64,000 nt of DNA from Antedon mediterranea. Lineage: Eukaryota > Echinodermata > Crinoidea > Comatulida > Antedonidae. The DNA is taken from assembly GCF_964355755.1 (NCBI RefSeq), contig NC_092679.1, positions 23,560,432 to 23,624,431 of the forward strand. The letters run 5' to 3'. Each line of letters starts with the position of its first letter. Position 1 is the stretch's first letter. A program made the translations under genes and the position numbers. Positions 24,906-55,522 of the stretch are shown here, in pieces. Under the pieces are notes generated by a model. The model was not told the DNA's origin, ran no database searches, and was given only the letters and a program-made list of their open reading frames with translations.

Positions 24906-26025
24906 TTATCTGTCAGTATTTCTAGGTCTCATTTCCTGAAGCTGTATAACAACCACAGGTCGTGTTCGATTGGTATGGGCAACGTTTGGTTTCTTATCTT
25001 TGCTTAAACAAGTAAAGCAACAGTTGATAATTGTGTATAGATAGGGATTGACCGAGGAGTTAATTGGTATGATGAACATTGCAGAAAAAACATACATTTG
25101 CACAGGAGGTGTCCACCAATCCAGTTCAGCACCAATTGCCATCAATACAATAGGAAACCAGCAACAAAAATCTGTGAAAACTAGAAAGCCTATTTTCACT
25201 GCTAGTTTGATATCTTCTTTTCTTCTTCGATTTCTGTTAGCACCTGCTGATGTGCGTTTGATAGACACGAAAATGATTATATAACTTGCAGAGATGACGA
25301 TAAAACCTACACTGTTGAATCCGATACAGGTAGCAAAAGCATACTCCCAGCCTGGCCAATGGCTTTTTGATAACGGCAGTGCAAGGCACACACTCTTTAC
25401 TCCATAATAATTATACCCGAAATAATGCCACGCCACGTCGCGGTCGTAGTAATGGTTGTCTGTTATGGCGTTTGCTACTAGTGGAAGAAAACTGAGCATA
25501 ATCCAACATACCCATGCAATTCCGATAATAATCCTACAAGTTCTGCAACTAAGACGTTTGGTACTAAATGGATAAGCGATGTTTATAGCACGGTCGATGC
25601 TTAAAAGCATTAATGTAAAAACCGAAGACTGACCAGAGAGAGTGGCAATGGCACCAGCCAAACTGCAAAGAAAACTCCCCTTCCAATTCAATTCAAATTG
25701 TGCATATCGCCCTCTGTAATACATATCTACACTTAAAATGATAATCAAATAGATTACCATTAGCAGGTCCGACACGGCAAGGTTGGTGATGAGTGAGGTT
25801 TGCACTTTATTAATTTCGTTTTCATTACTTTTGTTGTTATCCTTTTTACACTGTCGTGATATGATAACGACTGAATTGCCACTAAGTGCTGAAATTACAA
25901 TGATCCACATCAATACCCGTATGTATTCACTTCCTAGTAAGTCTTCACATGAAGCAAATGGATCTACCTCATCGGGATAGCAATATTCAATGTCAATGGA
26001 ACAAAAACATGATACATCCGAGAAC
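24906..26025 (-). CDS. LGR/GRL101-type receptor: hinge plus seven-transmembrane exon
   Basis: A single large exon, acceptor TAATAG before 26025 and TAA at 24906-24908, about 372 codons. It opens with a cysteine-rich hinge (SCFCSIDIEYCYPDEVDPF, then SCEDLLGSEYIRVLMW). This hinge type joins leucine-rich repeats to the 7TM bundle in LGR, RXFP and GRL101 receptors. Seven membrane segments follow: NLAVSDLLMVIYL in TM2, LLSIDRAINIAYPF at the end of TM3 (DRA in place of DRY), and INSSVNPYLYTI in TM7. A cytoplasmic tail of about 45 residues ends RPRNTDR. The exon starts in the same phase (one base completing a codon) as every leucine-rich-repeat exon upstream at 34-46 kb, so it can splice directly to the last of them across about 8 kb. 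Expected role: plasma-membrane receptor for a hormone-like or other extracellular ligand, identity unknown. Confidence 0.92.
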
Positions 26026-27332
26026 CTATTAGAGGAAAGTTAAACATAATTTAATAATAAATATTTCATCTTTTAGAGGAAACATTGCAACTGGACTGGA
26101 ACTTTTTGTATCATGATAATGAGTAAATTATATAGTCTAATGAGAAAAGGAAATAATAAGATGTTTGTATCATTACCTTCTCAAATAATGTAAACAACTA
26201 CCTAAAACGTCGGACGGGACATTTATGAATTTTAAATGCATGTATGAAATTAATAAACAAAAACATTAAATACTAACGTAACTATATTAAGTTTAAACAA
26301 AAAATGTTTTCACATTTTGATGCAAGGTTTATGAAATAAATAGGATTTTTAAATTTCCCGTCCGTAACATCAAATATATGTTTTTTATAATTAATATTCA
26401 ATAATTTAAAAATCAGAAAAATTACAAAAATATTTATTAATAAACTTCAACATTTCTACTTTGAAAATGGCCAAGAGTTGTATCAAAATCAGTAAATGAG
26501 CATTTTCAACTCACGAACCAAATACTGTGGAATGCCCCTATGAAGGTTTTGCTGATGACCTGGATGCACTGTGCTACAAACGATTTCGAGAAATGGGCTT
26601 AACTAAGATTTCATGATACATGACTTTGAATCAATTCCGCCAACTCCAGTGGCAGTTTGTAATCACACAGTGCTCGTGTATAACAATGTATAGACAAAGG
26701 CATCAACTTATATTCGAAAAAATAGAGATGTATTCAAGCTAGATCATCTTGAACCCACCCCTCTCGACAGATTTTAATCGTCAACAAACCGATTGTAATA
26801 CATGTAACTTAAGTTAAGTCAAAATCTCTCTCTAAAATAGTTCATACATTTTTTTTCTAATGAATCATGTTTAAAAACTATGCATATTTCTCAAACCTTT
26901 CCTTTTGAGAAAATGGCGGCCATTTAGACCACTTATTTTTTGCTGACCAAATAAGCCTATACTTACAATGTTTTTAAGTTTGTCAATTCCTCAAAAGTAC
27001 TCAAACTGTAATACTGTAAGTTGTTATCTTGTAACCATCTACAGAATAATAGTTTTAGATAATTAAATCAAGCATAGGCATAAACATGATTAGTAAAATG
27101 TGTAACACAACAAACACTCCCCGCAAAAAAATCTTATTCGAAGCTTATTATACTCTGTAGTGTTTATTTCAACAGAATAAAAAATACTGTTAAATTGGTA
27201 TTGAAATTACAACAGTGTTTAACTTACAATGATGTCAGTGATGAAGCAAAAAAAGTAAATGCATTTCGATCTATTGTAGTTATTCTGTTGTTATCTAAAT
27301 GCCTTTAAAAGATAAATCAATTAGACATAAAA

Positions 27333-27590: not shown

Positions 27591-27907
27591 GTGGCGTAAA
27601 CACCACTTTTATTCACATTCATATTATCTTTCATGTCATCACATAAAATCATATTATTTATCACATTTTTGTTAATTCCTAATGTCATTAGAATTTGATA
27701 AACTTCATCATTTTTAAATCTTTGTATTTTATTTTAATTTTATTTAAAACATATTTATGCCTTTACAGGATAAAAACATATCAGGTATAGATGTATCACC
27801 TGTTTTACATATGGTCATGTTTATAGTAAATAAAAGGTTAAAATATGCATACAGTTTATACAAAGACGCCGTTTGGTCTAAATAACCTAAAAATAATCTA
27901 AAAAATA

Positions 27908-30900: not shown

Positions 30901-31733
30901 CATCCAAATGCATGTGTCAATAATCATCCAAATGCATGTGTCAATAATCATCCAAATGCATGTGTCAATAATCATCCAAATGCATGTGTCAATAATCATC
31001 CAAATGCATGTGTCAATAATCATCCAAATGCATGTGTCAATAATCATCCAAATGCATGTGTCAATAATCATCCAAATGCATGTGTCAATAATCATCCAAA
31101 TGCATGTGTCAATAATCATCCAAATGCATGTGTCAATAATCATCCAAATGCATGTGTCAATAATCATCCAAATGCATGTGTCAATAATCATCCAAATGCA
31201 TGTGTCAATAATCATCCAAATGCATGTGTCAATAATCATCCAAATGCATGTGTCAATAATCATCCAAATGCATGTGTCAATAATCATCCAAATGCATGTG
31301 TCAATAATCATCCAAATGCATGTGTCAATAATCATCCAAATGCATGTGTCAATAATCATCCAAATGCATGTGTCAATAATCATCCAAATGCATGTGTCAA
31401 TAATCATCCAAATGCATGTGTCAATAATCATCCAAATGCATGTGTCAATAATCATCCAAATGCATGTGTCAATAATCATCCAAATGCATGTGTCAATCAT
31501 CCAAATGCATGTGTCAATCATCCAAATGCATGTGTCAATAATCATCCAAATGCATGTGTCAATAATCATCCAAATGCATGTGTCAATAATCATCCAAATG
31601 CATGTGTCAATAATCATCTAAATGCATGTGTCAATAATCATCTAAATGCATGTGTCAATAATCATCTAAATGCATGTGTCAATCATCAAAATGCATGTGT
31701 CAATCATCAAAATGCATGTGTCAATCATCATGA
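27908..31733. repeat. 24-bp minisatellite, about 159 copies, with higher-order structure
   Basis: Unit AATCATCCAAATGCATGTGT plus CAAT, centred on the palindrome ATGCAT. The period is a multiple of three and the unit lacks stops, so ORFs of over 1,200 codons run on both strands (27923-31621 plus, 31617-27898 minus), with IIDTCIWM-type octapeptides. These are artefacts. The left edge (27913-28140) alternates GCATGTGTC and GCATTTGTC units. Both edges carry 21-bp units with ATCAAAATGC. A block with two 21-bp units, two CAGCC-variant units and GCACGTG variants occurs at about 28651-28930 and again at 30061-30370, exactly 1,410 bp apart. Confidence 0.97.
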
Positions 31734-31766
31734 AGTCATACAACTACCACAATTCAATTTAAACTA

Positions 31767-32107: not shown

Positions 32108-33665
32108 CTAGATGGCACGCTCGCTTCGCTCGCGTACCATCTAGGTCGTGCCCACAGATGGTTCTCGAATACACAGTATTTCCAGCGAGAAAAAAATGGA
32201 GATTTCAAATGTACGTACTGCCGGACTATAATACATTGTCGTTTACAGAAACGAATAAATATACACAATGATTTATGTAGTCAGCTAAAATTAGCACCCT
32301 GGGAATTACTTCCGAGAGAGAAACAAAATGAGTCAATTTTTTTTATTTGGACTCATTTAAACAAACCCAATTTGTGTTTTGTATGTAACATTAAGGGTTG
32401 AGGGATGGGGGAAGAAGATAGGTACAAAGAGGAAACATTTTAAAATATATTCCTATCCACTCAGTAACGAAATATTGTTTTTAATGTTTTATAGGCCTAT
32501 AAATAATATACCACTAAATACAGTAAAACATTTACGATTTAATACGGTACTTTGTTAAAACTCTCACTGTCATAGTCGATTGAAATAGTAAAGTACATGT
32601 AACGATACACCACTACGACGTTTATATATTTTTTAATTATTAATTAATACAAACGTTGAGAAGCAACTGTCAGTAATAACGTTTATTTATTTGTATATTA
32701 TATGTTTATAATCTAACAGTAGGGCCTACCCACATTCACAGTAATAAAGTTTATTTGTATATATTTTTATATTACATCTAACAGTACCAACACTCACAGT
32801 AAGAAATTTGCGATTCAAATTGCGATCAAAAGTGGTTAATACCTTAACAGTATTGTACAGCATTGCAATACTATTTATGTTTATTCTCCAAGGGGGCCCA
32901 TAAATCTAAATCTATACCTCTATGGTTAAACCAAATAATTTGGAATGTTTATTTGTATATTATATGTTTATAATCTAACAGTAGGGCCTACCCACACTCA
33001 CAGTAATAAAGTTTATTTGTATATATTTTTATATTACATCTAACAGTACCAACACTCACAGTAAGAAATTTGCGATTCAAATTGCGATCAAAAGTGGTTA
33101 ATACCTTAACAGTATTGTACAGCATTGCAATACTATTTATGTTTATTCTCCAAGGGGGCCCATAAATCTAAATCTATACCTGTATGGTTAAACCAAATAA
33201 TTTGGAATGTTCCATTCATCACAAATCAATACATTTGTAAAAACGTATATTAAATGTATCAAAATAGTATTTTTTAAAGAAAATCGGCCTGTCTTCAACA
33301 TTATGATGGTGTACTCTAGCTGTTCAACCGGTTTTCAGCTATTAAAAACAATTATCGTAGGAGGAGATAGGAAAATGCGAAGCCTCCTCGCATTTTTGTG
33401 GCGGGTATTTTTCAAGATGGACATCCATTATACAGTGTATACCACGGTCGGAAAACACCCCTATTTGGGGCAAATCTTGGAACCTAAATTCGTTTTAACC
33501 GTCAATAACTTATTATCTAACTTAATTTAATTAGTAAACAGGGTTACATCAGGTGGTTAAAATCAGTACCGAAAGTACGAACCAACTTTATATACCATCG
33601 AGTAAAAATTCTAGAAGTAAGGCGCGATTTACCGAATTTTGCCCTTACGTAAATTTATATATAGA
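32108..33665 (-). mobile_element. Helitron-like non-autonomous element, full length
   Basis: On the minus strand the element begins TCTATATATAAATTTACG (5' TC) and ends in a hairpin whose last arm is GCGTGCCATCTAG (3' CTAG). It is flanked by A at its 5' end and T at its 3' end, as expected for Helitron insertion between A and T. The terminal hairpin pairs CTAGATGGTACGC with GCGTGCCATCTAG around a GAGCGAAGCGA core. A homologous copy at 56894-58186 has the same ends and a different flank. No Rep/helicase is encoded. Canonical Helitrons keep the hairpin some bases before CTRR; here CTAG is inside it, so this may be a related rolling-circle class. Confidence 0.75.
32685..33208. repeat. 262-bp internal tandem duplication in the Helitron-like element
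   Basis: The segment starting TTATTTGTATATTATATGTT and ending AATAATTTGGAATG occurs twice, 262 bp apart. The copy at 56894-58186 has it once. The two units are nearly identical, so the duplication is recent. Confidence 0.85.
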
Positions 33666-33727
33666 TAAACAGTTTAAAAAAACATATTTTCGGGTTAAAT
33701 TATTGTAAATGTCAATGGGCAAACTGT

Positions 33728-34030
33728 ATGGTATCAAATGAAAGCATACACAATATGCTACCCATTGCTACCCAACTTGTTTTGTAAATGTTTAATTATG
33801 AGGCTAATTTTATGGAAAATGTTCATAATTTGACTACTTTTATACATCAAAAATGAATATTTGGTAGCGTAATTGTTGTGTTTATTTATATAATATTAAA
33901 TAATTTAAGTGTTTGGAAGAACTATTTAGTATCAAATAAAAGCCCATACACTATTCTATCCATTGCTACCCAACTTGTAATAGAAATCTGTAATTATGAT
34001 GCTAATTTTGTGAAAAATGTGCATATTTTA
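33728..34030. repeat. imperfect direct repeat, about 200 bp spacing
   Basis: GTATCAAATGAAAGC through TATTGCTACCCAACTTGT-type sequence and GGCTAATTTTATGG near 33730-33815 recurs, diverged, near 33929-34025. Confidence 0.7.
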
Positions 34031-34143
34031 TTGATAATGCAACAAGAGAAGCGAGCATCGTCACTTGGTTGGTGTCGAATGGCACCAGGTGGGACCAAGG
34101 GACCGTTTTAACAATTAAAAAAAGGGTTACTTTATATACTCAC

Positions 34144-37100
34144 AGTATCTTCAATGCTGTCAAATCAGCAAATGCAGTGGCTGACAATGTAACTATTTGG
34201 TTATAGCTCAAATCCCTTTAAAAAAAGAATGCAAAGGTAAAAATTATAAATTAGCGGCGGCACCAGGATCGTCCCGACAGAGGGGGGGGGGGGATTGATA
34301 TGCAACAAGCGAAGAGAGCATCATCACTTGGTTGGTGCTAGGGCCACAGTTAGGGGATCCGGGGGAAGAATGACGTTCAGCGTATTTAATTTGAGGCCAT
34401 TTTAATGAATAAAATAAGTTAACTTAATGTACTTACAGTTCTTTCAATGCTGTCAAATCAGCAAATGCATTCGCTGGCAATGTACCTATTTGGTTATGGC
34501 TCAAATCCCTTTAAAGAAAGAATGCGAACGTAGAATACAATTATACATCATTATTATTGTGATAAATATTTACTACAAAATACAAACTATTTCAAAAAAT
34601 TACTTATTTCATTCAAGGGGGATATGCAACAAGCGAAGTGAGCATCACTTGGCTGGTGCATATCAAGGGGCCCAGGTGGGACCAAGGGGCCGTTTTAATA
34701 ATTAAACAAAAGGTTACTTAATATACTCACAGTTCTTCCAATGCTGTCAAATCAGCAAATGCATTGGCTGGCAATGTACCTATTTGGTTATTGGTCAAAT
34801 CCCTTTTAAAAAAGAATGCAAAAGTAAGAATTATAAATTAGCGGTGGCACCAGGATCGTACCGACAGGGGTGGGGAGGGGGGTGATATGCAACAAGCCAA
34901 GCGAGCATCGTCACTTGGTTGGTACATGTCAAATGGCACCAGGTGGGACCATGGGACCGTTTTAATAATTAAAAAAAGGGTTACTTTATATACTCACAGT
35001 TTCTTCAATGCTGTCAAACCAGCAAATTCATTGGCTGACAATGTAACTATTTGGCTATAGCTCAAATTCTTTCAAAGAATGCAAAGGTAAAAATTATAAA
35101 TTAGCGGCGGCACCAGGATCGTCCCGACAGAGGGGGGGGGGGGGATTGATATGCAACAAGCGAAGAGAGCATCATCACTTGGTTGGTGCTAGGGCCACAG
35201 TTAGGGGATCCAGGGGAAGAATGACGTTCAGCGTATTTAATTTGAGGCCATTTTAATGAATAAAATAAGTTAACTTTATATACTCACAGTAACGTCAATG
35301 CTGTCAAATCAGCAAATGCATTGGCTGGCAATGTAACTATTTGGTTAAACCTCAAATCCCTTTAAAGAAAGAATACAAACGTAGAATACAATTATACATT
35401 ATATTAATGTGATAAATATTTACTACAAAATACACATTAGGCCTACTACAAAAATTACTTAATTCATTATATTTCATTATATTATATTTTGTAATTTTAG
35501 CATGACCCGTCCTAGTTTACAAAATACCAAAAACGTCGGCCTCTAGAACTATAACTGCTGCTGCTTGCTTTAGCTTCTGAATGAGTAGACCTCTTGGAAC
35601 GTAGCTGGCTAAAGCTGCGGCGTGAAAAAAAGAGTTACTTAATATACTCACAGGATTTCCAATGCTGTCAAATCAGCAAATACATTGGCTGGCAATGTAA
35701 CTATTTGGTTATTGCCCAAAAACCTTTAAAGAAAGAATACAAACGTAGAATACAATTATACATTATATTAATGCGATAAATATTTACTACAAATTAATAC
35801 AAACAATTTACTTATTTCATTATATTTCCGCTGAACGACACGAAATGACAGAAAAACAGTTTTTTATGGAGTTTTTATGAATGTATCTCTGTGTTATTAT
35901 TTGAACAATTGTTATGGCTGTATTTTTTTTAATAGTTTTTGAAACATCGTCGGCATTGACATTTTAAAGTAAGATTTCAATTTTTCAATTTCAATTTCTA
36001 TTTAGATGATCTCAAAATCGTACTATGTTAAAGTAGACATGTTCGTAACATTGTTTTATTCTGAAAACGAAAACGTCTATAACCTTTGACCTGGTACACC
36101 ATGCTTCAAAATCCCAATCAGGCTTTCTAATGACCTAGTGTTAAATGCATTGGCTGGCAATGTAACTATTTGGTTATAGCTCAAACCCCTTTAAAGAAAG
36201 GGAGTTCAGGTTATTATTTGCCATTTCTTTTGTTTTCTCATGTTTTACTATTTTAAACCATTTTTACCATTCATCATTATTGTTGATACCAATATAATAA
36301 CCATTTGTAATTAGCGCGCCTACATAGGTGTGTAATGTTGGACAAATTGCTCTGCATACCATAGTCACAGCAACACATTTGAAATAATTATATCAATAGA
36401 CAACACATCGCTGATAATAAAACTGTCTGTTAATTAAATTGTAAACTGTAATTGTGGTTTGTCTAACAGAATCTTGACTTAAAATAGGACTATGGGGGAA
36501 AATGTCACCTTTTATTAGGCTATTACCTCAGTTTTCATAGTTAAAATATCAATTTTTAATACATTTATAATAACGTGAGAGTGCCATTTCCGACCATCTA
36601 GAGGTGTTATATTTTCAAAATCGCCTAAAACTCAGCCCAACATGGTTGGTGTGGACTCTACAGTTGCGCCCCCCCCCCCCGCCTTCACAAAATCCTGGAT
36701 CCGCCCCTGTGGCCGAATGACGTATTTTAAGGCCGTTTTAATGAATACAATAAGTTAACTTTATATACTTACAGTGCTTCCAATGCTGTCAAATCAGCAA
36801 ATATATTGGCTGGCAATGTAACTATTTTATTACCGTACAAATACCTTTGAAAAGAGAATACAAAAGTAAAATTTACAAATTAGCCGTGGTACCAAGGTGA
36901 TATGCAACAAGCGAAGCGAGCATCATCACTTGGTTGGTGCAGGGCCACAGTTGGGGATCCAGGGGAAGAATGACGTTCAGCGTATTTAATTAGAGTAGGC
37001 AGGAACCTAAAAGTGAACCTAATCACTATAACAAGAGTTCAGGTTCCGTACTCCCAAAGTAACAACAATGATATAAAATAAACTATATAAAAATATTTAA

Positions 37101-40100
37101 AAAACAAATAGACGAATCAACAGTGTCAATATAAAATAAACGGATAAAATACATAATAGTCGATTCAACAAAGTCAATATAAAACATGTGATTTAAGTGA
37201 ATTTAAAAATATTTGAAAACTGTCTAAAATTAAAGAATTTTTAATCATTTCCGGTAATTCTTCCCACAACCTAGGGAATATATTAATAGCGGAATGATGA
37301 AGACAATTGGTTCGAGCATAGTGATGAATGAACTTAAGTGTATCAAGGTGACGGCCATTAACAACTAAAGATTGACGAACACTACTACAATCAACCGTTC
37401 CAATAAGTGATTTACAAACAAAGGATAACAGAAGATAATTTCTTCGATTAGATAGTGTAGGCCAATTTAGCTTAGTGAGACGTTCCTCGTATTCCATTTC
37501 ACCTCTTGTTTGTTTAAGGACAAGTTAACTTTATATACTTACAGTGCTTCCAATGCTGTCAAATCAGCAAATATATTGGCTGGCAATGTAACTATTTTAT
37601 TACCGTACAAATACCTTTGAAAAAAGAATACAAAAGTAAAATTTACAAATTAGCCGTGGTACCAAGGTGATATGCAACAAGCGAAGCGAGCATCATCACT
37701 TGGTTGGTGCAGGGCCACAGTTGGGGATCCAGGGGAAGAATGACGTTCAGCGTATTTAATTTGAGGTAATTTTAATGAATAAAATAAGTTAACTTAATAT
37801 ACTCACAGATCTTCCAATGCTGTCAAATCAGCAAATGCATTGGCTGGCAATGTAACTATTTGGTTATAGCTCAAACCCCTTTAAAGAAAGGGAGTTCAGG
37901 TTATTATTTGCCATTTCTTTTGTTTTCTCATGTTTTACTATTTTAAACCATTTTTACCATTCATCATTATTGTTGATACCAATATAATAACCATTTGTAA
38001 TTAGCGCGCCTACATAGGTGTGTAATGTTGGACAAATTGCTCTGCATACCATAGTCACAGCAACACATTTGAAATAATTATATCAATAGACAACACATCG
38101 CTGATAATAAACTGTCTGTCAATTAAATTGTAAACTGTAATTGTGGTTTGTCTAACAGAATCTTGACTTAAAATAGGACTATGGGGGAAAATGTCACCTT
38201 TTATTAGGCTATTACCTCAGTTTTCATAGTTAAAATATCAATTTTTAATACATTTATAATAACGTGAGAGTGCCATTTCCGACCATGTAGAGGTGTTATA
38301 TTTTCAAAATCGCCTCAACTCAGCCCACCATGGTTGGTGGTGTGGACTCTACAGTTGCGCCCCCCCCCCCCCCCCCGCCTTCACAAAATCCTGGATCCGC
38401 CCCTGTGGACGAATGACGTATTTTAAGGCCGTTTTAATGAATACAATAAGTTAACTTTATATACTTACAGTATTTCCAATGCTATCAAATCAGCAAATAT
38501 ATTGGCTGGCAATGTAACTATTTTATTACCGCCCAAATACCTTTAAAAAAAGAATACAAAAGTAAAATTTACAAATTAGCCGTGGTACCAAGGTGATATG
38601 CAACAAGCGAAGCGAGCATCATCACTTGGTTGGTGCAGGGCCACGGTTGGGGATCCAGAGGAAGAATGACGTTCAGCGTATTTAATTTGAGGTAATTTTA
38701 ATGAATAAAATAAGTTAACTTTATATACTCACAGTTCTTCCAATGCTTTCAAATCAGCAAATATATTGGCTGGCAATGTAACTATTTGGTTATTGGTCAA
38801 ACGCCTTTAAAGAAAGAATACAAACGTAGAATACAATCATACATTATATTAATGTGATAAATATTTACTACGAAATACAAATTACTACAACAAATTACTT
38901 ATTTCATGATATTTCCGCGGAACGACATACAATAAGTTAACTTTATATACTTACAGTATTTCCAATGCTACCAAATCAGCAAATATATTGGCTGGCAATG
39001 TAACTATTATTATTATTATTATTTATTGCCAAAAACCAGTTACAAACAAACAAAACACAGAAACTAAGGGAGTAGGCAGGAACCTAAAAGTGAACCTAAT
39101 CACTATAACAAGAGTTCAGGTTCCGTACTCCCAAAGTAACAACAATGATATAAAATAAACTATATAAAAATATTTAAAAAACAAATAGACGAATCAACAG
39201 TGTCAATATAAAATAAACGGATAAAATACATAATAGTCGATTCAACAAAGTCAATATAAAACATGTGATTTAAGTGAATTTAAAAATATTTGAAAACTGT
39301 CTAAAATTAAAGAATTTTTAATCATTTCCGGTAATTCTTCCCACAACCTAGGGAATATATTAATAGCGGAATGATGAAGACAATTGGTTCGAGCATAGTG
39401 ATGAATGAACTTAAGTGTATCAAGGTGACGGCCATTAACAACTAAATATTGACGAACACTACTACAATCAACCGTTCCAATAAGTGATTTACAAACAAAG
39501 GATAACAGAAGATAATTTCTTCGATTAGATAGTGTAGGCCAATTTAGCTTAGTGAGACGTTCCTCGTATTCCATTTCACCTCTTGTTTGTTTAAGGACAA
39601 GCCTAGTAGCCCTTCGCTGGACTGCTTCGATACGTTCTGTAAGTTTTTTGGTTCGAGGCAACCACGCTGGAACACCATATTCAAGGATGGGGACAATGAG
39701 AGCTTTATAGAGTGAGAAAATAGCTGAAGGGGATGATCCTCCTGCAATACTAGTAATAAAACCCAATATTCGATTTGAACGAGAAATAATTAAGTTTACA
39801 TGGTCATCCCAAGTAAGTTCACTATTAATCGTGACCCCCAGATGACAATGACTAGATACGGATTTAATAGGCAAGTCATTTATACGATAAACAGGTCTAT
39901 ACTCTTTCCCTGATCTTGTAATGTGGAGAACCTTGGTTTTATTTAAGTTAAGCTCCATTTCATTTAGATCACACCAAGAGGAAAGCCTGATCAGATCGCA
40001 CTGAAGAACAACTTCATCGTCTACAGTAAATATATTTCTATAAATTATCGTGTCATCGGCAAACAATGCACATGGAGAAATAACAGATGAAGGAAGGTCA

Positions 40101-43100
40101 TTTATAAATAAGTTAAAAATAAGGGGTCCAAGTACGCTGCCCTGTGGTATGCCAGAGGTAACTGGGGATGATGGGCTAATGGATCCTTGATACAAGACTC
40201 TTTGGGAACGTCCCAATAGAAATGACTTGATCCATTTCCAGACATTGCCTCTGATATTAAAGTGGCTAGCCAGCTTATTAAAAATAATATGGTGAGGCAG
40301 TTTATCAAACGCTTTGGCATAGTGGAGAAAGATAACATCAATTCTGGGGGCTTTAGTTTTATCTAGCGAAGATGCCCAGGAATGAGTTAGGTTGGTAAGT
40401 TGGGTAACACAGGAACGTGAGGGGAAAAAACCGTGCTGGACATCAGTAATTGGACAATTATAAGCAACGTGATCAGATATACTTGAAAACAGTATTTTTT
40501 CAAGCAGTTTCGAACAAATAGGGGTAAGGGATATTGGTCTGTAATTACAAATTGCATTTTTATCACCAGATTTAAATATAGGAGTGATATGGGACATTTT
40601 CCACTTAGCGGGGATTTCCCCCATACGCAGGGACAAGTTAAACAAATTAAATAATGGTGGAGCAATAAATTCGGAAGCAGATTTCAATATGTATGGATGC
40701 ACGGAATCAGGACCTGGAGATTTATTAGATGAAAGTCCATTAATCACCTTCTCAACATTGTAGACGTTAAAGTTAAGTTGAGAAAGTTCAGGGATTGGGA
40801 CATTACAAACCGGAGGTTCACAGCTGGGAATTATGGGTGAGTTAAAAACAGAAACAAAAAAATCATTAAATGAACTAGCAATTACAGGGTGTGACGAAAC
40901 ATTCACACCATTTTATTACCGTCCAAATACCTTTAAAAAAAGAATACAAAAGTAAAATTTACAAATTAGCCGTGGTACCAAGGTGATATGCAACAAGCGA
41001 AGCGAGCATCATCACTTGGTTGGTGCAGGGCCACGGTTGGGGGATCCAGAGGAAGAATGACGTTCAGCGTATTTAATTTGAGGTAATTTTAATGAATAAA
41101 ATAAGTTAACTTTATATACTCACAGTTCTTCCAATGCTAAGAAAAACAGTTTTTTATGGAGTTTTTATGAATGTATCTCTGTGTTATTATTTGAACAATT
41201 GTTATGACTGTATTTTTTTTAATAGTTTTTGAAACATCGTCGGCATTGACATTTTAAAGTAAGATTTCAATTTTTCAATTTCAATTTCTATTTAGATGAT
41301 CTCAAAATCGTACTATGTTAAAGTAGACATGTTCGTAACATTGTTTTATTCTGAAAACAAAAACGTCTATAACCTTTGACCTGGTACACCATGCTTCAAA
41401 ATCCCAATCAGGATTTCTAATGACCTAGTGTTAAATGCATTGGCTGGCAATGTAACTATTTGGTTAAAGCTCAAATCCCCTTAAACATCGTCGGCATTGA
41501 CTTTTTAAAGTAAGATTTAAATTTTTCAATTTATATTTAGATTATCCCAAAGTCGTGCTATGTTAAAGTTGACATGTTATTAACATTTTTTATCCTGAAA
41601 ACAAAAACGTCTATAACCTTTGACCTGGTACATCACGCTACAAAGACCAATCAGGATTTTTAATGACCTAGTGTTAAAGGATAGGAGACAATTTGTGGAC
41701 TGGTAATAAGTCTTAACGTGACACGTAAACTGAAACTACTTTTCCAAAAATTGTATGTACAAGTGGGAAGAGTTATAATTGTAATGTGAAAACATAATTT
41801 GACTTTTAAAACTCAATTTCAAGAAGCGAGCATCATTTGGCTAGTGCATGTCAAGGGGCCCAGGTGGGACCAAGGGACCGTTTTAATAATTAAAAAAAAA
41901 GATTACTTAATATACTTACAGTATTTTTAATAATGTCAAATCAGCAAATATATTGGCTGGCAATGTACCTATTTCGTTAAGGAACAAATCTCTTTAAAAA
42001 GTAAAGTAAAAAATTACAAATTAGCGGTGGGGGATGGGAGATATGCAACAAGCGAGCATCATCACTTGTTTGTTGCTGGGTGTCCAGGGGAAGAATGACG
42101 TTTAGCGTATTTAATTTGAGGCCATTTTAATGAATAAAATAAGTTAACTTAATGTACTTACAGTTCTTTCAATGCTGTCAAATCAGCAAATGCATTCGCT
42201 GGCAATGTACCTATTTGGTTATGGCTCAAATCCCTTTAAAGAAAGAATACAAACTTACATTATGTGATAACAATTTACTACAAAATACAAATTACTCCAG
42301 CAAATTACTTAATTCATTATATTACATAGCCTATGTAAATACGCGAACGTGATTGGTTGAAACTGCATCACATGACTACCGATGCGAGGATCGTAAATCT
42401 TATATATCCTCGAGTACGATGATATTGACTGTGTAATTTTCGTGTGCAACACTCGCGTTTGCCGATAAATAAACAAAAGTCATCTACTGGGTCTTGAACT
42501 TGTGATGCGAATTGTCACTCCATCAGAAGACAACGCTCCAACCGCTGCGCCACGGAACTTGCTTGAAAAAATAAATCTTCTAAACTATTTAAGCTATGCA
42601 TACATAGCGCCCTCATTTCTTATTAGTCCACCCTAAATGTGGTGAAACACCGTTTGTGATTGGTCAATACTCACGGTAGTAACCTAGTAACTAGTACGCG
42701 CTGAACATCCGGTGATTCGGCTCCTCGAAGAGAAGAAGACGAATTATTTATTCGGCCTACCTGATTTAATTATTAATAGGCTTATTGATGGAAATTCTTC
42801 TGTTAATTTAAACGACCTAGGCCTAAGTGAATATTTTATTGCCAAGGAATCATTAATTAGTAATTATCTGTATATTATTCTTCGCAAGGTAAGGTGTCTA
42901 GGCAGGCTTGTTTAAATACAATACATAATACTATAGGAGGCCTAGCCTAGCTTCACCCAACCCAGCAGACTTGTTCTTGGCTATATAATATAACAGATAT
43001 TGCCTTTTATATCGGTTAAATATAAGATTTGACATCCCCTCGGGAATGATATTAAGTTCTCGGGGAATATATATTTCACTCAGCTGGCGCTTCGGGAAAT

Positions 43101-46100
43101 ATATATTCCCTCGAACTTAATATCATTCCCTCGGGGATGTCAAATCTTATATTTAACCTCTAAGCAGTCAATATCTGTATAATATTTCCGCTGGACGACA
43201 CGCGAAATCACAGAAAAACAGATTTTAAAATGTATCTCTGTGTTATTATTTGACCAATTTTTATGACTGTTCAGTATTATTATGCCTATATAATTATCTA
43301 CAGTGTAATGTTATTAGGTGATAATTTAGAATAAAATGATCACCTATTGTTATTGTATGAAATCTGTATTATTCAAATCAATTTCTGATTAAATTAGAGC
43401 ACGTTTCAGGTAATTTTAAGCGTTTAAAAAATTCCCACTGGTGCGCGCATTTTTACGCGCGCACGGCGCAGGGAACGCGTATGAGTCTTTCTTTTTTACA
43501 TAAATTGTTTTTTTTCAATCTTCGGTTAACAATTTTACGTTGTTTTATTCATTTTCCAAATTTGAAATGGTGTTCTACGAGTACGTTTAACATGACAGGT
43601 TGCGCAGGAAAAAGTCATTAAATCGTGAAACAATACAGTTCATCAGAATACAAGGTTACCCCCATTTTTTATTTTATTTTCTAACAGTCTATGAATCATA
43701 GGTGTGATTTAATATAGTGTTGAATGTTAAAGTGTGTTTGACGGCTACATTATTTGCATATTAAATATAATTTTTGAATTTTTTTTCATCGAACAAACAA
43801 AAATATTTTCAAAGAGCAAAACATAAAACGTAACGTTTACGTTTTTTCGTCACATGTCATTGTATAAAACTTGAAATTATGCACTTTCACAATATGTGAC
43901 TTTTTAAAATTCGTACGTGAAGATATCATCATAGTAAATATTATGATTTAGTTTGGTATGTAATACTCTATTTGCATCGAGGGGTTCACCACATACCGAA
44001 TGCATGAGAAATCTTTCTTAAGATGTTATTTCCGGTGTTCAGATGGCTCAATGTGTGCAACCGACTTTGCTATTAGAGTTACGGGAGCGAATTCCATCAT
44101 AGGAAAACAATTAAATAAAAGGATTTATTTTATTTATTTGAAAGGACAGTTTAATTTTGAGCTACTTTTTGGAAAAGTCATAACTGAAAAGATCTTGAAT
44201 GCGTTACGTTTTGTTGCGGTCGGATAACCAAACTCGTCCTAAGTGACGAGTTTAAATCTAGTTGTTGTTCGTCTTCTTTCTGTACACTATTTTGTGTAAC
44301 AAATATCTCACAAAGTAAAATGTGAACGATCACCAAAATTTCACAATATCTTTCAAATAATTTAACTTAATCCTAATAAGCTTTTCAGCGTGATCACTCA
44401 TACGAGACGTTAATTATACGCCATTTTGTGAAATTACATTATCAATCACATCTCCATAACTTGTCATCAAATATCAATACAATTCACTATAAAGTAAACT
44501 TCAGGTGAAGGGTAAAAATATAGCAAATAAAAACCGCCGCGTTCCAAGGTCATGCGCATGAAATTACGCGCTAAAAAAGCTCAAAAATAAGTTTTGATCA
44601 ATTTAGAGCATGAATTAAGCCATTTGCATATTTCAAAAAAAAATTCTGCGCAAAAACAAGTTTTTGAGCAGGCTAGGCTTTTTTTTACCTTTTGTCGTAG
44701 ATTATCACATTCAACAGAACGCATCATCTCGGTTATTTGAGCTCGAATTTCGCACACACTTTAGTATGTGCTTGCTTAATTGTATGTGCTCGTGAATTGT
44801 CAGCGTTAAATTGTGATGACGTCATCACGCGTACAAACTTGAATAACGTAGGTCGTGTAATTTCACCAACACCATATATTTGAATATCTTACAGCTCTTC
44901 GGAATTAAGGGGACCTTGAAGATTATAACTTATTATGAAAGCTGATGAAATGTAGATATGAATTCATATAAAAAAAGCCTATCGGATGTTGTGATGTTAT
45001 CTTATGGCCAGTTAAAAAGTAGTTTTTAAATTTCCTTAGTCAAAGTTATACACATTTTAAAGAGCACGCATTGCGTCTGTACGTGCCAAATTCTCTTCCA
45101 ATTATTATATTTTGTTTGCTCAATTCATTATAATAGGCACAACTCAGCACTATAAGCGTTTAATGTTGATGTATGCCATCCTGGCATCCGCCCCTGTAGA
45201 TGAATTCATTCAGCGTATTTTAAGTCCGTTTTAATGAATAAATTAAGTTAACTTTATATACTCACAGTATTTTCAATGCTGTCAAATCAGCAAATGCATT
45301 GGCTGGCAATGTAACTATTTGGTTACCGCTCAATTTCCTTTAAAAAAGAATACAAAAGTAAAAATTACAAATTATCAGTGGTACCAGGATTGTACCGCCA
45401 AGGTGATATGCAACAAGCGAAGCGAGCATCATCATTGGTATGGTTGGTGCAGGGCCACAGTTAAGGATCCAGGGGAAGAATGACGTTCAGTGTATTTAAT
45501 TTGAGGCCATTTTAATGAATAAAATAAGTTAACTTACTATACTCACAGTTCAGTACACTTTTTTTTCGATTTCCATTTTACAACCTTTCTTTGGAAATTT
45601 TATCCTATTTTATTCAATTTTCAACTTGAAATCGCTATATACGAGCATGCGAAAGTGACAGGCTACACACAGAAAAACTCGTGAAAATGTTATGAAATGT
45701 ACTGAATTTTAAAATTAAAGTTGAACCTCCGTGAGCGGCCACCTCCCGTATTTCAAAAGCCCGTGCATTTGGTGCCAAAATGATATCACTCTCACTGGGT
45801 TGTTACATTAGAAAATCTTTGTAATTCAATCTGTTTCCTCTTTTAATCACATTTTATTTTAAGGCTTTGGTACAACCAGTCGTGCAAACGCTGACTTACT
45901 ATACGCGCGAAGCGCTCTGTTGTGACGCTTTTACTCAAAATAGGCATACTGTATGGGGGAAAATGTCACCTTTTCATAGCCTATTACCGCAGTTTTCATA
46001 GTTTAAATATCAATTTTTAACACATTTATAATAACGAGAGTGCCATTTCCGACCATCTAGAGGTGTTATATTTGCAAAATTGGTTTTATTAAAGTGTTAT

Positions 46101-46529
46101 GTTGCTGTAATTTCTAACAAGAATTTATGAATCCTTGACTGTGATTGGCTACAGAGATAAATTACGCTCTCTGATTGAATTAATAAAATGATATCTTTAA
46201 AAAAATAGATTATCTTTATTTACTAAATCAAGGCATAATCTATAATTCCGTCACATTAAATCTTGTTATTTTTATTTATATTTTCTGAAGCACCTAATAA
46301 TGTTCTGTATTTTGATTAGGCTTACAAAGTAATTAATTGTTCTGATAATATCAACCAATCCCATGCACTTGACTAGCGGCATCACTTGGTTGGTACTAGG
46401 CCCGCTAGGTCCGTTATTCGACGACGCTATCATCGTTACTTAACTTAAGTAATATTTTATTACAAAAATAATGTTAAATCAGCAAATTCATTGGCTGACA
46501 ATGTAACTATTTCGTTATCGTACAAATAC
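34144..46529 (-). CDS. leucine-rich-repeat exon array of the LGR-type receptor
   Basis: Each exon encodes one 24-residue LRR and has the same symmetric phase (one base, 23 codons, two bases; CT|G joins restore Leu). Intact 72-nt exons: 45266-45337, 42162-42233, 41920-41991, 38733-38804, 38469-38540, 37807-37878, 37543-37614, 36773-36844, 35652-35723, 35288-35359, 34731-34802, 34437-34508, 34144-34215. A 66-nt variant (two codons shorter, weak GTAATA donor) is at 46464-46529. The typical product is DLSHNQIGTLPANAFADLTA followed by LKEL. The core QI-TLPAN-FADLTAL is nearly invariant, while the residues around the LxLxxN strand differ (DLSHN, YLYGN, DLRFN, FLGNN, DLFLN, RLTNN, KLSGN). Introns are also mutually similar, showing growth by exon-plus-intron duplication. 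The array feeds in phase into the 7TM exon at 26025. An N-terminal LRR cap or LDLa domain was not found. Confidence 0.85.
34998..35069 (-). pseudogene. LRR exon with destroyed splice acceptor
   Basis: Aligned with its neighbours, CTTTAAAG|GG has become CTTTGAAA|GA, so the AG of the acceptor is AA. The next AG is one base later and would shift the frame. The coding part otherwise remains readable as an LRR (NLSYS...SANEFAGLTALKK). Confidence 0.7.
36142..36188 (-). pseudogene. truncated LRR exon
   Basis: Only the 5' two-thirds of the exon (minus sense), up to the AATGCATT equivalent, is present. The donor half is replaced by a dispersed repeat that extends down to about 35850. A complete version with the same acceptor-side flank exists at 37807-37878. 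Confidence 0.75.
37007..37523 (-). pseudogene. LINE fragment duplicated into the LRR array
   Basis: Practically identical to 39069-39600 inside the LINE at 39009-40909, including the C-terminal coding part (RLTKLNWPTLSNRRNYLLLS). It lacks both the RT core and the (ATT)n tail. Both ends join LRR-intron sequence; the right junction reads ACAAG|TTAAC with short overlap. This suggests recombination rather than retrotransposition. Confidence 0.8.
38955..40930 (-). pseudogene. LRR exon split by a LINE insertion
   Basis: The 54-nt donor-side part (38955-39008) and the 18-nt acceptor-side part (40913-40930) together make a perfect 72-nt LRR exon of the YLxGN type. The LINE at 39009-40909 lies between them. 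The target duplication is minimal (ATT). Confidence 0.85.
39009..40909 (-). mobile_element. CR1/jockey-like LINE, 5'-truncated, reverse transcriptase mutated
   Basis: The minus-strand ORF 40906-39251 (about 550 codons) encodes an RT: NKSPGPDSVHPYILKSAS, NYRPISLTPICSKLLEK, GIPQGSVLGPLIFNLFINDL and FADDTIIY, followed by the C-terminal domain with GEMEYEERLTKLNWPTL. The motif-A aspartate expected in a DFAKAFD-type block reads HYAKAFD, so the first catalytic Asp is His and the enzyme should be inactive. The endonuclease and 5' end are missing. The 3' end carries an (ATT)n microsatellite tail at about 39009-39024, typical of CR1-like insertions. It lies inside an exon of the LRR array, so it postdates that exon. 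Confidence 0.9.
41124..41475 (-). pseudogene. LRR exon interrupted by a 295-bp repeat
   Basis: The exon starts (low side) at 41124 with a normal donor, reads to CCAATGCT at about 41138, is interrupted, and resumes at about 41434 with AATGCATTGGCTGGC. About 12 bases of exon are lost. The inserted sequence is also present at about 35850-36142. Confidence 0.75.
41230..41677. repeat. about 200-bp repeat, two tandem copies here and one at 35945-36142
   Basis: ACATCGTCGGCATTGAC through AACCTTTGACCTGGTACA to ATGACCTAGTGTTAAA occurs at 41230-41435 and 41483-41677 with divergence, and again at 35945-36142. The second copy extends without an LRR remnant at its end. Confidence 0.8.
42480..42562 (-). 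mobile_element. tRNA-derived SINE head
   Basis: On the minus strand GTTCCGTGGCGCAGCGGTTG (A-box like) and, about 50 nt later, AAGTTCAAGACCC (B-box like) are spaced as in a tRNA. The stems do not form a clean cloverleaf, so I call it a SINE head rather than a tRNA gene. Confidence 0.5.
42983..43190. mobile_element. foldback/MITE element with about 95-bp inverted arms
   Basis: Arms run from ACAGATATTG through TAAATATAAGATTTGACATC and GGAATGATATTAAGTTC to AATATATATTTC, repeated in reverse complement to CAATATCTGT. Flanks ATAATATA and ATAATATT match at 7 of 8 positions, compatible with an 8-bp target duplication. There is no ORF. Confidence 0.75.
43200..45240. other. non-coding stretch inside the LRR array
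   Basis: AT-rich sequence with no LRR exon or recognisable coding exon. A weak palindromic GCGCGC patch lies near 43440-43470. It separates the exon at 42162 from the one at 45266. Confidence 0.5.
45546..45560 (-). pseudogene. remnant of an LRR exon donor end
   Basis: The intron/donor motif ATACTCACAGTTC is present at the usual place after the conserved intron block (45425-45540), but the exon is cut off after about four exon bases by unrelated sequence. Confidence 0.5.
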
Positions 46530-46779
46530 CTTTAATGCAAAAGTAAAAATTACAAATAGGGAGATGATTCTGATCAGCTGATAAGAACACAACGCACTAT
46601 TATTAGGCCAACAAATTTTAATGTAGAATAAAAATAATGTTGAAACAGCTCATAAGTTCAACCACCCTACTAGGAGCATTTACCCACATAACAACAGGAT
46701 ATTTTACCAAAATACGTAAATGTTGAATAGTAAAATTCTTGTTTCCTGTGTTTGTAAATATATGCTTCTGTGGACTGTA

Positions 46780-46903
46780 ACCATATATGGACACAATGAT
46801 GTGATACCACTACCATATTTGGGCACATCACTACCATATGAGCACATCACACTTTTTTTGTCAAACTCTTTTTTTTTATACTGTAGTGTAGACAGAGCTT
46901 TAG
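46780..46903. mobile_element. diverged relative of the CTAAAGC MITE
   Basis: Contains ACCATATATGG, GGGCACATCAC and a right end GTAGTGTAGACAGAGCTTTAG, shared with the element at 24076-24216. The left end is eroded. Confidence 0.6.
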
Positions 46904-47479
46904 TTGTTAGACTTTTTAACTACCGGTACACCTTTCTCCCCTAAAGGCCACGTCCGTACTGTCCGTACTGCCAATACGGCGCGCGCTTTCGTCCACGATA
47001 GTGTAACCAGGGTAATTACTTCCTAGTCGACTCGAAAGATGTACTAGGTTATTTAAGGTACACACGAGCATTCTGTGTAAACTGGACCTACTGCTTAATA
47101 GTCCTTATATCTAAGAACCATATAGTCCACCAGGTTCGTCAGGTCAGTCAAACATCTGAACTGCTATCGTTCAAGCTGTATTCCGATACAACCTGTATCA
47201 GCTACAATACTACCAAAGGTCTAGTTGTCATCATGTCTGAAAGCTATACTGGCGAGGACACTTGTCCCTAGTAGGTTTAACCAAGTCAGGCAGGTTTCAG
47301 GCTCTTCAGGCCTATAGTAGTATGAGTCAGTCGGTTCCTCGGCGACTAATTATAATAATAATAAATAATATATTTATACAGGATAAACAATCAGATAACA
47401 GTGTATTTGTTTTATATTGTGGTCCTGTCTTAATCAAAATATACAAAAGAGAAACTTAATTAAATATAATACAGTGTTT

Positions 47480-50719: not shown

Positions 50720-53500
50720 AGTCATACGTACAATTCTTTTACCGTATTATTTGTATTGAACTCAACGAGCTGTGAATGTACGGTTGTATTCCATCTATAA
50801 CATGGTATACGCCAACCACGCAAATAGGTGACATTATAGCAACGGCAATTTGTTGGGCATACACCTACGTTTAATAAAGAACAATAGAATTAGCAATAAT
50901 AAGAAAACGCCAAAATGACATTTTACATCAGTTTTTTTATTTTAGATCACAGACACGTGCACAGAAAGTACTCAGGAATTACACCGCCCTAGTCTAGGTT
51001 CAAGACTGTGTTTCGAATTAATAATAATATTAGCAACAAGGGTTAGGCTATATATTTTAGCACATATGGCGTTTCATACGTATACACTCTAGCTCAAAAC
51101 CAACATTCCAGTAAAAAAAAAATGTCTGATTTCTCCGAACTTTCGTTGTACAGCCGCCGACAAACGTACTCACTAATCAAACAATTATTCATCTACACAC
51201 ACCATGGAAGTGTGATTCACTCCTCCCCCTTCCCTGATGGATACACGCCATTCGCCAATATACTTATTACCATAGAGGAAGACTTTGACCATTATTCAAT
51301 GATAAATGCCTACGTTGACAGCCAAAACGTAAACATTGTTTATTGAATGTCTTATAGACTACTGTCCGCATACATCTCATAGACTCTCTTCTCCCAGACG
51401 TGTTTGGTATTTGAGCATGCCCAGTCTGAGTTTAAAATTTCCATTTTGTCAGCCTTAGTCAACTAAACTTCCGCGTGATACAGTTTCCTAATGCTTCCGT
51501 TCTCTTGATTAGTGAGCTTTCGAAGTGCCGACGCGGGGAAGTGTTTAAATAATAAATGATTGAGTTAAACTTAATTAGATACTTAACAGTTTTAGTATCT
51601 ATATTTGAATACAGAAAACAATGGATGGACACGAAAATCGTTGCCATCGCAACTGTTATTAGAACAAACTGGAAACCATGATTGTTTCGACAATAAAGGT
51701 AAATATTTTTTTAATAATTCAGTACTTCTAAACTGGAATTACATTAGTTCCATTACTTTTAGTTTTGAAGCAGATCTATCTTTATAATCTTTAGTTTATA
51801 CACAAGTAGCTTTTTATTACCAAGTCCAAGTGTTATAGCATATACAATTATTTAATTATATCCATACGGCGTCGATTTCAATTATCGATTCATGGAATAA
51901 AGTTATAATTATAAACTTTAGAGAATTTAATTAAATTATCAAGTATTTTTATGAGATGATATCTGAATGATATCAAATTTTATTTCAACTGGTAGATTGT
52001 TTGAACGTGTGTATTTTCATTATGTTTTATTTATTACTCACTTTACAACATGGTTTGAAATTGTAGGCGTTTGTTCAAGTTAAACTATGCCTACAATACA
52101 GATAAAATACAGAAAACAATTCCAAGAAAAAACAACTTCACAGTTAACATTACGGTAGTTAAAAGTTACAATTTAAAAGGATTGGTGTTTACAGTGTAGA
52201 GTTTCCATTACCGATTGAAATGCATCGTCACATACGGATGAAAAGAGTTCCTGACGTTTTCCATTTTGAATAAGCTAACCTAAAGAATTTGTTAAAAGAG
52301 TGCTGATCATCTAAACAAAATTGCTTTAACTTTCTTGCCAATGGATTTCATCAACCTTCTTACTACTTTTAATTACTAATATTCTATCGTAACTAATCCT
52401 GTCTATTCCACTGAATTCATAATATCATCATAAGTCTATTGAATAAAAAGACATATTAAAACATCTATGATTACATTCTTTGTAACATACATTGAGTTTT
52501 CTTTCAAATTTAGTTTATTATACAAAGATATATTTGTATAACGTTTGACAATTTCTACTTTATTCATAACAGTTAGGCCTAACTGACTAAATTTCCTAAA
52601 TTAATAATTATTTCTTTTTAGTTTTAATTACATTCAACTGTATTAATTGTTGTAGAACAACATTATCAAAGTATAGAACTGAGTAAAGTTACTGTAGATT
52701 TCACAAGTTCAAAATTCACAAAAAAATTGAAACTATTGTTTGTTATCGATATAACTTAAACTGCACGTGTTGCTATACGTTTTTCAAGAAAATGTAGTTC
52801 AAGCCAAATAGGTATGAGATCATCCCAATTTGCCTTCATGAATTTCTGTGTTTGTTTGTATATGTGTTAGCAAGATTACGTCAAAGCTACTAAAAGGATT
52901 TTGACCAAATAATCACCATAGATATCAATAGATACGTGATCTACGCGCGATTTTCTAAAATAACGTAATTAATCTTAAATCATAAATACACCATATTTAT
53001 AAAGACATTTATTAGGCCGGCATATGAACGGTTGACGGGTTGGGCTGTCGACAAGTTTAGCCGCCGGTGATTTATATGAAACGCCCAGTGCGTCTATTAC
53101 GACATTTCGCGTAGTCTAGTGATTACAGTAAGTACTATGTGTATGTAGTTCACCATGGTCTTTAGGTTTATTGTGTTATAAAAATAAATAATATATAATT
53201 ACATACTACAATTTTGTTGGTTAAACTACCATAACAACACAACAAAGGAAAGTAGGCCTAGTAATATTTAATAAATTAATTGTTTTTAATCTGTCAAGTT
53301 AAAAATTCAGTGCACTTCATAATATTTTTCTCGCGTGTACCACGTGAAGTCATGTTGTCTCTCAGGACTAATAAAGTATTGACATCCTTCGAATGAGGTT
53401 AAAGAAATATTATTTCTTAACTAATCATTTAATATCACATTTTATTGAATTTTACAATGTTAATACACAAAATATTTTACTATGATTAGATTTAAAAATG
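50720..53500. other. non-coding stretch with no supported gene
   Basis: AT-rich sequence with no exon of convincing composition on either strand. It would have to contain the N-terminal exons of the receptor if the signal-peptide exon at 53511 belongs to it, but none was recognised. Confidence 0.4.
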
Positions 53501-54695: not shown

Positions 54696-55225
54696 GAATA
54701 GGCCTACTGTATTATGCCTTATACATAATAGGCCTACTGTATTATGCCTTATACATAATAGGCCTACTGTATTATGCCTTATATTAATAGGCCTACTGTA
54801 TTATGCCTTTTATTAATAGGCCTACTGTATTATGCCTTATACATAATAGGCCTACTGTATTATGCCTTATTTTAATAGGCCTACTGTATTATGCCTTATA
54901 TTAATAGGCCTACTGTATTATGCCTTATATTAATAGGCCTACTGTATTATGCCTTATATTAATAGGCCTACTGTATTATGCCTTATATTAATAGGCCTAC
55001 TGTATTATGCCTTATACATATTAATAGGCCTACTGTATTATGCCTTATATTAATAGGCCTACTGTATTATGCCTTATACATATTAATAGGCCTACTGTAT
55101 TATGCCTTATACATATTAATAGGCCTACTGTATTATGCCTTATACATATTAATAGGCCTACTGTATTATGCCTTATACATATTAATAGGTCTACTATTAT
55201 GCCTTATACATATTTAGCCCATTAA
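54696..55225. repeat. minisatellite A, 29-35-bp units containing TAGGCCTA
   Basis: About 17 units of TAATAGGCCTACTGTATTAT followed by GCCTTATAT or GCCTTATACATAT. Unit length varies with the ACATA insertion; longer units dominate the right half. Confidence 0.92.
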
Positions 55226-55522
55226 CACTGCACTTAATAGGCCTACTATATTTGGCCTTATACATATTTAGCCCATTAACACTGCACTTAATAGGCCTAC
55301 TATATTTGGCCTTATACATATTTAGCCCATTAACACTGCACTTAATAGGCCTACTATATTTGGCCTTATACATATTTAGCCCATTAACACTGCACTTAAT
55401 AGGCCTACTATATTTGGCCTTATACATATTTAGCCCATTAACACTGCACTTAATAGGCCTACTATATTTGGCCTTATACATATTTAGCCCATTAACACTG
55501 CACTTAATAGGTCTACTTTATT
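55226..55522. repeat. minisatellite B, 54-bp units, about 5.5 copies
   Basis: Unit TAATAGGCCTACTATATTTG, GCCTTATACATAT, then TTAGCCCATTAACACTGCAC plus T. The first part is the unit of the adjacent array A with a new 22-bp extension, so array B arose from an A-type unit. Confidence 0.92.

Follow-up and report, generated by a model that had tools for sequence, protein, structure and literature searches.

The window analyzed here is a 64,000-nucleotide stretch of Antedon mediterranea DNA (C10:23560432-23624431 of a 354-Mb animal assembly), and its minus strand contains an array of small exons that each encode a single leucine-rich repeat (LRR). A splice-bounded exon scan recovered, between 34144 and 45337, 13 intact 72-bp exons bounded by AG and GT, all of them in phase 2 and each encoding one LRR of 24 residues; we refer to these exons as cassettes. 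A strict core test on positions 33001-47000 found 13 on the minus strand, none on the plus strand and none in 200 single-base shuffles. An earlier note on this DNA had described thirteen intact one-LRR exons sharing one phase, and the scan bears this out; the two exon pairs that it had called identical (34437-34508 with 42162-42233, and 36773-36844 with 37543-37614) are so base for base, and the mutual similarity of the introns flanking the cassettes was confirmed. The span that it had assigned to the array, 34144-46529, stands in that the intact cassettes lie inside it; its 3' limit, 46529, coincides with the edge of a damaged copy that lacks a 5' splice site, the interval also contains five damaged cassettes, and the gene runs beyond it, spanning at least 24909-50864.

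By predicted exon joining, the 13 cassettes belong to one LGR-type receptor gene, for which comparison with paralogous blocks gives the order of LRR cap exon, 13 cassettes, two fixed LRR exons and a single exon for the hinge and the seven-transmembrane (7TM) region (Table 1). A signal-peptide exon 5' of the cap exon (50732-50864) was not located. The 7TM exon (24909-26025) is closed by a TAA stop at 24906-24908, and its acceptor, AG followed by G, is alike in five genes. It matches 7tm_1 (E 3.2e-27); its best solved-structure match is RXFP1 (E 1.4e-34), followed by TSHR, LHCGR and FSHR (1.9e-26 to 8.8e-29) and, more weakly, LGR4 (5e-14), with no GRL101 entry among the 60 solved-structure matches listed. 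This ranking agrees with the LGR-type 7TM body that the earlier note had proposed. The predicted joined exons match LRR_8 (E 4.4e-86), and the ectodomain so joined has the LGR4 ectodomain as its best solved match (1.7e-61), with few gaps in the 24-residue register. The LDLa motif has been described as distinctive of type C LGRs (PMC11863921). Two regular expressions for it gave no match in the window and in stretches L001-L025 fetched from the same assembly, a scan that left out L026-L029 and a first exon that was not located.

Table 1. Exons and damaged cassettes of the receptor gene in the window, in the order of transcription.
Feature	Position	Strand	Basis
LRR N-terminal cap exon (VCPTNCRC...WNTTVHSQLVEFN...), 133 bp, ends in phase 2; first exon located	50732..50864	-	tblastn to paralogous cap exons; splice sites checked
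Damaged cassette without donor	46467..46529	-	
LRR cassette KLSGN	45266..45337	-	splice-bounded exon scan
LRR cassette DLSHN, same bases as 34437-34508	42162..42233	-	exon scan and base comparison
LRR cassette DLFLN	41920..41991	-	exon scan
Damaged cassette without 3' part and donor	41431..41478	-	
Damaged cassette without acceptor	38955..39008	-	
LRR cassette RLTNN	38733..38804	-	exon scan
LRR cassette YLGGN	38469..38540	-	exon scan
LRR cassette GLSYN	37807..37878	-	exon scan
LRR cassette YLYGN, same bases as 36773-36844	37543..37614	-	exon scan and base comparison
LRR cassette YLYGN	36773..36844	-	exon scan
Damaged cassette without 3' part and donor	36141..36188	-	
LRR cassette FLGNN	35652..35723	-	exon scan
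LRR cassette DLRFN	35288..35359	-	exon scan
Damaged cassette, 71 bp, acceptor and donor kept, frame broken	34998..35068	-	
LRR cassette DLTNN	34731..34802	-	exon scan
LRR cassette DLSHN	34437..34508	-	exon scan
LRR cassette DLSYN	34144..34215	-	exon scan
Fixed 75-bp LRR exon (HLDNNRITTIDRNAF...), conserved among paralogues	27228..27302	-	paralogue comparison
Fixed 72-bp membrane-proximal LRR exon (WLQDNNLQYYSLSTFEELTNL)	26967..27038	-	paralogue comparison
Single exon: Cys-rich hinge, class A 7TM and C-tail	24909..26025	-	domain and structure matches

The gene is one of many. The 7TM protein has at least 107 matching places in the genome, a lower bound since only the best candidates were scored, and we count at least 56 near-full-length copies (at least 300 residues and at least 49% identity), the window's included, on ten contigs; stops occur in the matched stretch of 9 of the 56 listed copies, some of them perhaps the natural stop, and eleven more full-length copies at 39-43% identity are among the matches listed. 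These genome-wide matches confirm the tandem paralogues reported in the earlier note. The strongest DNA matches to the cassettes group on C10 near LGR genes, with weaker ones on C2, C5, C7 and C9. From 29 fetched stretches in twelve blocks, past which arrays may extend, nine arrays with intact cassettes were counted, out of at least 56 genes and in one genome: 13 intact cassettes in the window gene, 24 in C7 5.73M, 10 in gene3, nine each in C7 3.13M, C5 and C8, eight in C2, seven in C1 and six in C10 13.18M, which makes 95 in total. The fixed 72-bp exons do not enter these counts, and neither do the one cassette in the C9 stretch or the exons belonging to the C7 4.08M/4.20M gene pair. Both fixed LRR exons lie beside seven of the nine arrays, the C1 scan giving the 72-bp one only and the C8 scan the 75-bp one only. 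The cap exon was located in four genes (window gene, gene3, C10 13.15M and C7 3.13M) and in part in gene2; none was found in five further blocks searched. The median spacing of cassettes is 0.5-2.5 kb, depending on the array. Cassettes duplicate singly and in blocks, as where C7 5740460-5742019 repeats four of the five exons found at 5737528-5739959; within each array, introns and exon cores remain similar. The duplication that the earlier note had read from the identical exon pairs of the window gene is seen again in the single and block copies of C7 5.73M. Elsewhere in the family, 7TM exons follow one another every 5.13 kb at C9:16723973, 16729101, 16734230 and 16739358, with no LRR exon found between the first two, and LGR genes with equal 7TM scores lie 120-140 kb apart at C7:4084546, 4204517 and 4344750.

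Variation among the cassettes is concentrated at positions 1, 3, 4, 22 and 23 of the repeat, which we take, from the general LRR fold, to form the concave face (the LxxLxLxxN strand). When the 95 exons are pooled, the five highest entropies among 23 positions fall at 23, 4, 3, 1 and 22, in that order, and these are the concave five; S, Y, D, G, N and R are frequent at positions 1, 3 and 4, and the structural core positions are conserved. When the concave codons were ranked by nonsynonymous difference among 33,649 five-codon sets, with identical exons counted once, they came third in the window gene (11 distinct exons) and in C7 3.13M, first in gene3 and C8, second in C5 and C7 5.73M, and 213th in C10 13.18M. 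Within the window gene the proportion of nonsynonymous differences (pN) is 0.50 at concave codons versus 0.07 elsewhere, and the synonymous proportion (pS) is 0.08. Other positions vary as well, for example 14 in the window gene and, in C7 5.73M, 6 and 8. Variation that is uniform across the repeat, the outcome that would have spoken against the earlier note, is excluded in seven of the nine arrays (rank p <0.007) and borderline in C1 and C2.

The same codons stand out against the DNA beside them. Because the cassettes of one array are not independent, we compared 20 disjoint cassette pairs with flanks less than 5% diverged, ten of them from the 24-cassette array C7 5.73M. Differences were found at 69/300 concave bases (23%), 126/6750 flanking bases (1.9%) and 28/1140 other exon bases (2.5%), an odds ratio of concave to flank of 15.7 and a rate about twelve-fold higher; the concave rate lay above the flank rate in 12 of the 20 pairs. 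In the extreme pair, C7:5738565/5741498, the flank shows 0/350 differences and the exon 10/72, namely six in concave codons and four others. An internal control comes from the C7 3.13M and C5 genes, which are 92% identical over the 3.4 kb adjoining the 7TM exon. Their two shared proximal LRR exons have no concave differences (0/15) with flanks 6-14% diverged. By contrast, when each of the seven array cassettes of C7 3.13M, two of which are identical, is set against its best flank match (2-11% diverged), 3-8 of the 15 concave bases differ in every case. In this control, the concave signal belongs to the distal array and not to the LRR position generally. Concave-strand codons 22, 23, 1, 3 and 4 thus differ far beyond the neighbouring DNA in most tested arrays, and the excess change at the concave face anticipated by the earlier note appears both in the codon-set ranks and in the disjoint pairs, with C1 and C2 as the weak cases.

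The signalling part of the receptor behaves differently. Among five genes, the ratio of nonsynonymous to synonymous substitution rates (dN/dS) of the 7TM exon is 0.06-0.18 for distant paralogues and 0.42-0.52 among three close C10 genes, values which place this exon under purifying selection; the 7TM exon is conserved, as are the proximal LRR exons in the gene pair tested. Given these patterns, we consider it probable that the LRR exons of this LGR-type family undergo germline birth and death and evolve in concert, while selection diversifies the ligand face. Since each cassette is a 72-bp phase-2 exon, copies can be gained or lost without breaking the frame. Splice-competent cassettes would normally all be joined in the mRNA to encode a single long LRR ectodomain; the cassettes would be homogenized, and their number altered, by unequal crossing-over and gene conversion; and diversifying selection would keep the ligand face different between them, which would give the family many binding specificities, encoded in the germline, that share one signalling body.

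Several observations weigh against this reading. The concave geometry is drawn from general LRR knowledge rather than from a structure solved for the protein itself. Two of the nine arrays have only a weak concave excess (C1, rank 1822, p 0.054; C2, rank 1406, p 0.042), with concave pN just 1.2 times pS, and among the 20 disjoint pairs the concave rate fell below the flank rate in four and tied with it in another four. The window gene carries a splice-competent cassette of 71 bp that breaks the frame (34998-35068), so that either this exon has to be skipped or the gene may be in decay; moreover, an open frame was part of the definition of an intact cassette, which favours the frame-keeping argument. 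Some relatives show no intact cassette in the stretches covered: the block C10:13199001-13219000, which lies upstream of the open 7TM exon at 13241262, contains four cassettes, all of them damaged, and in the broken gene2 no intact cassette was found between the 7TM and the cap-like match. Finally, the C7 4.08M and 4.20M genes, which are 99.95-99.98% identical in matched stretches and represent either a very recent duplication or an assembly duplication, have the same exons over the matched 12.6 and 6.6 kb; there has been no gain or loss of cassettes on that time scale.

Other features of these loci are recorded here in their own right. The four damaged cassettes upstream of the open C10 7TM exon (stretches L011/L012) span C10:13201909-13209998, the fetched sequence leaving out 13219001-13241261. 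The next tandem LGR paralogue of the window gene (window 63771-64000, continuing in L001) has its 7TM exon split between two frames and looks broken because of this split and because no intact cassette occurs up to a partial cap match. Within the cassette array lies a reverse transcriptase frame (RVT_1) of the long interspersed nuclear element (LINE) type (39254-40912, minus strand), the end of which recurs at 37177-37524 (minus strand), beside cassette 37543-37614. The intron between the array and the fixed LRR exons holds a 3.9-kb minisatellite with units of about 24 bases (27886-31764), which leaves long open frames on both strands, and a second retroelement, with endonuclease/reverse transcriptase frames, lies between the cap exon and the array (47772-50111, plus strand). 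Two further tandem repeats with open frames, in units of about 51-54 bases, are found at 22694-23645 and 55189-55539. Frames of G protein-coupled receptors (GPCRs) of a non-LGR kind adjoin the LGR gene at 16303-17187, 18245-19062 and 21084-22013; the first and third match 7tm_1, and the second is divided between frames.

The alternative that survives best is a directed process, either short-tract gene conversion from donor cassettes or local hypermutation, which would rewrite concave codons beyond what point mutation and selection achieve; we regard it as possible but doubtful. It would explain pairs whose flanks show 0/350 and 0/352 differences, yet whose exons differ at 10 and 4 bases, as well as concave-identical exons beside one diverged flank (C5 16236409/16238423, left 0/170, right 23/178), and it is conceivable because concave divergence in C7 5.73M does not rise with flank divergence (r=0.01). 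In that same array, however, codon 2 never changes and codon 5 changes once in 24, amid variable codons, so that selection on the protein is required in any case. Elsewhere, concave and flank divergence rise together, in C5 (r 0.92), C7 3.13M (0.87), C1 (0.75) and C10 13.18M (0.67), and more weakly in C8 (0.43), gene3 (0.33), the window gene (0.30) and C2 (0.21); homogenized flanks combined with exons kept by selection would, besides, give the same pattern.

Alternative splicing, which the earlier note had raised as a possibility, is unlikely to be a main contributor to isoform diversity within each individual, whether by skipping or by choice of a subset. Dscam-like exon choice would be one form of it, with duplicated exons included alternatively in mRNA. 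The scan was built to admit symmetric cassettes only, so that any subset of the 95 intact ones stays in frame; LRR exon skipping is seen in human NLRP3 (PMC6642158), and the frame-breaker of the window gene, which retains its splice sites while the rest of the gene is intact, would need to be skipped. Nevertheless, 94 of the 95 intact cassettes have GTRAGT donors, which fit constitutive inclusion at least as well as alternative splicing, and there is no sign here of mutually exclusive control. The damaged copies speak to the same point: among 30 in the window and in part of the fetched blocks, judged by eye from the sequences, only 34998-35068 is clearly frame-broken while keeping acceptor and donor. 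Three others are ambiguous, namely C10:13209482 (an AG near the expected place) and two C7 copies that may be open exons, C7:3130919 of 84 bp and C7:3139882 of 24 bp. One such frame-breaking copy against 95 in-frame ones fits what would be expected if splice-competent cassettes are normally included. A separate group of four full-length cassettes at C1:24276883-24278610 (L020) has the donor GT changed to TT; there, a dead exon has itself been amplified.

We consider it improbable that this is an ordinary LGR family, with one-LRR exons, unequal crossing-over and neutral divergence under structural constraint, and with no diversity function. The modularity of LRR exons has been described for human genes, and fixed-frame LRR exons are known in human LRR families (PMC6642158); the structural core is conserved as in any LRR, and the C1 and C2 arrays fit such a view. 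Neutrality, however, predicts concave divergence no higher than that of the introns, whereas the pairs place it about twelve-fold above; the rest of the exon has no excess over the flanks, and the two proximal exons of C7 3.13M and C5 are conserved at the same positions. That the window array is a decaying relic or an assembly artefact is hard to credit. In its favour stand the damage to five cassettes, one of which is the splice-competent frame-breaker, the presence of a LINE frame and of a satellite in the introns, the split 7TM copy next upstream, and another C10 gene whose block holds damaged cassettes only. Against it, the gene retains 13 intact cassettes together with intact cap, proximal LRR and 7TM exons, the 7TM substitutions are purifying, and the cassette anatomy recurs in eight other arrays, one of which has 24 intact and no damaged cassettes in the fetched stretch. 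Little credence attaches to an anticipatory recognition repertoire, in which some 56 relaxin-receptor-like genes would carry germline libraries of LRR cassettes, would have their ligand face rewritten by directed conversion or mutation and would signal directly through G proteins from splice subsets chosen per cell or per individual.

Germline birth and death of cassettes under diversifying selection, the reading that we favour, invites comparison with known systems. The variable lymphocyte receptors (VLRs) of lampreys and hagfish vary at the concave face of their LRR modules; somatic assembly joins their cassettes without splicing, and they lack a 7TM body. The array shares with them the variability of the concave LRR strand, which here is weak in two of nine arrays, and VLR-A is the 60th of 169 matches to the ectodomain. 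It differs in that each intact cassette has AG/GT splice sites and lies upstream of a germline 7TM exon. The likeness to variable LRR immune receptors drawn in the earlier note therefore holds for the logic of variation and fails for the lamprey VLR mechanism, the cassettes here being splice-flanked and in line with the 7TM exon. The DNA-binding zinc-finger array of PRDM9 is a minisatellite within one exon, and its units undergo concerted evolution. Positive selection at the contact residues of these tandem coding units has been described (PMC3890296), and the cassettes are likewise near-identical units that differ at contact codons (flank 1.9%, concave 23%, other exon bases 2.5%); unlike those of PRDM9, the units here consist of exon plus intron and lie in a receptor ectodomain.

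Among the LGRs themselves, the type C members (RXFP1, RXFP2 and GRL101) are similar in having an LRR solenoid, a Cys-rich hinge and a class A 7TM region, and RXFP1 is the best 7TM match; the present family departs from them in a cassette number that varies by gene and in its hypervariable concave face, and no LDLa motif was found in the blocks scanned. A GRL101-like receptor is expressed in the sensory tentacles of a starfish (PMC6267866). SudRes2, a GRL101-like LGR cluster in Biomphalaria snails that is linked to schistosome resistance, is also a tandem cluster with presence/absence differences among its genes; its proteins, however, carry LDL and C-type lectin domains, and the available part of that paper describes neither expandable LRR exon arrays nor concave hypervariability (PMC12297450). 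Ciona likewise shows a lineage-specific expansion of relaxin-receptor-like 7TM genes, but its 14 LDLRR-GPCRs have LDLa repeats and no LRRs (PMC2396169), whereas the genes here have many LRRs and no LDLa that we found. No description of hypervariable LRR exon arrays on GPCRs was found in the literature searched, which comprised open papers only.

Hypervariable recognition by LRRs is known from the VLRs of jawless vertebrates and from plant NLRs, and turnover of contact residues in homogenized arrays from PRDM9. Here the same diversification logic would operate on a hormone-receptor-type GPCR of an animal, in several arrays and within a family of dozens. Its role would most likely be the recognition of variable non-self or conspecific molecules, be it immune, allorecognition or chemosensory; if confirmed, this GPCR family would be a candidate system for non-self or kin recognition. 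An immune role specifically is one that we only infer, by analogy, and the association of a snail GRL101-like cluster with resistance to parasites (PMC12297450) makes an immune reading testable. Cassettes with identical introns but different binding residues also offer a natural experiment on the diversification of contact residues. Taken as a whole, the sequences suggest a receptor family that evolution has kept diverse at the residues expected to touch the ligand.

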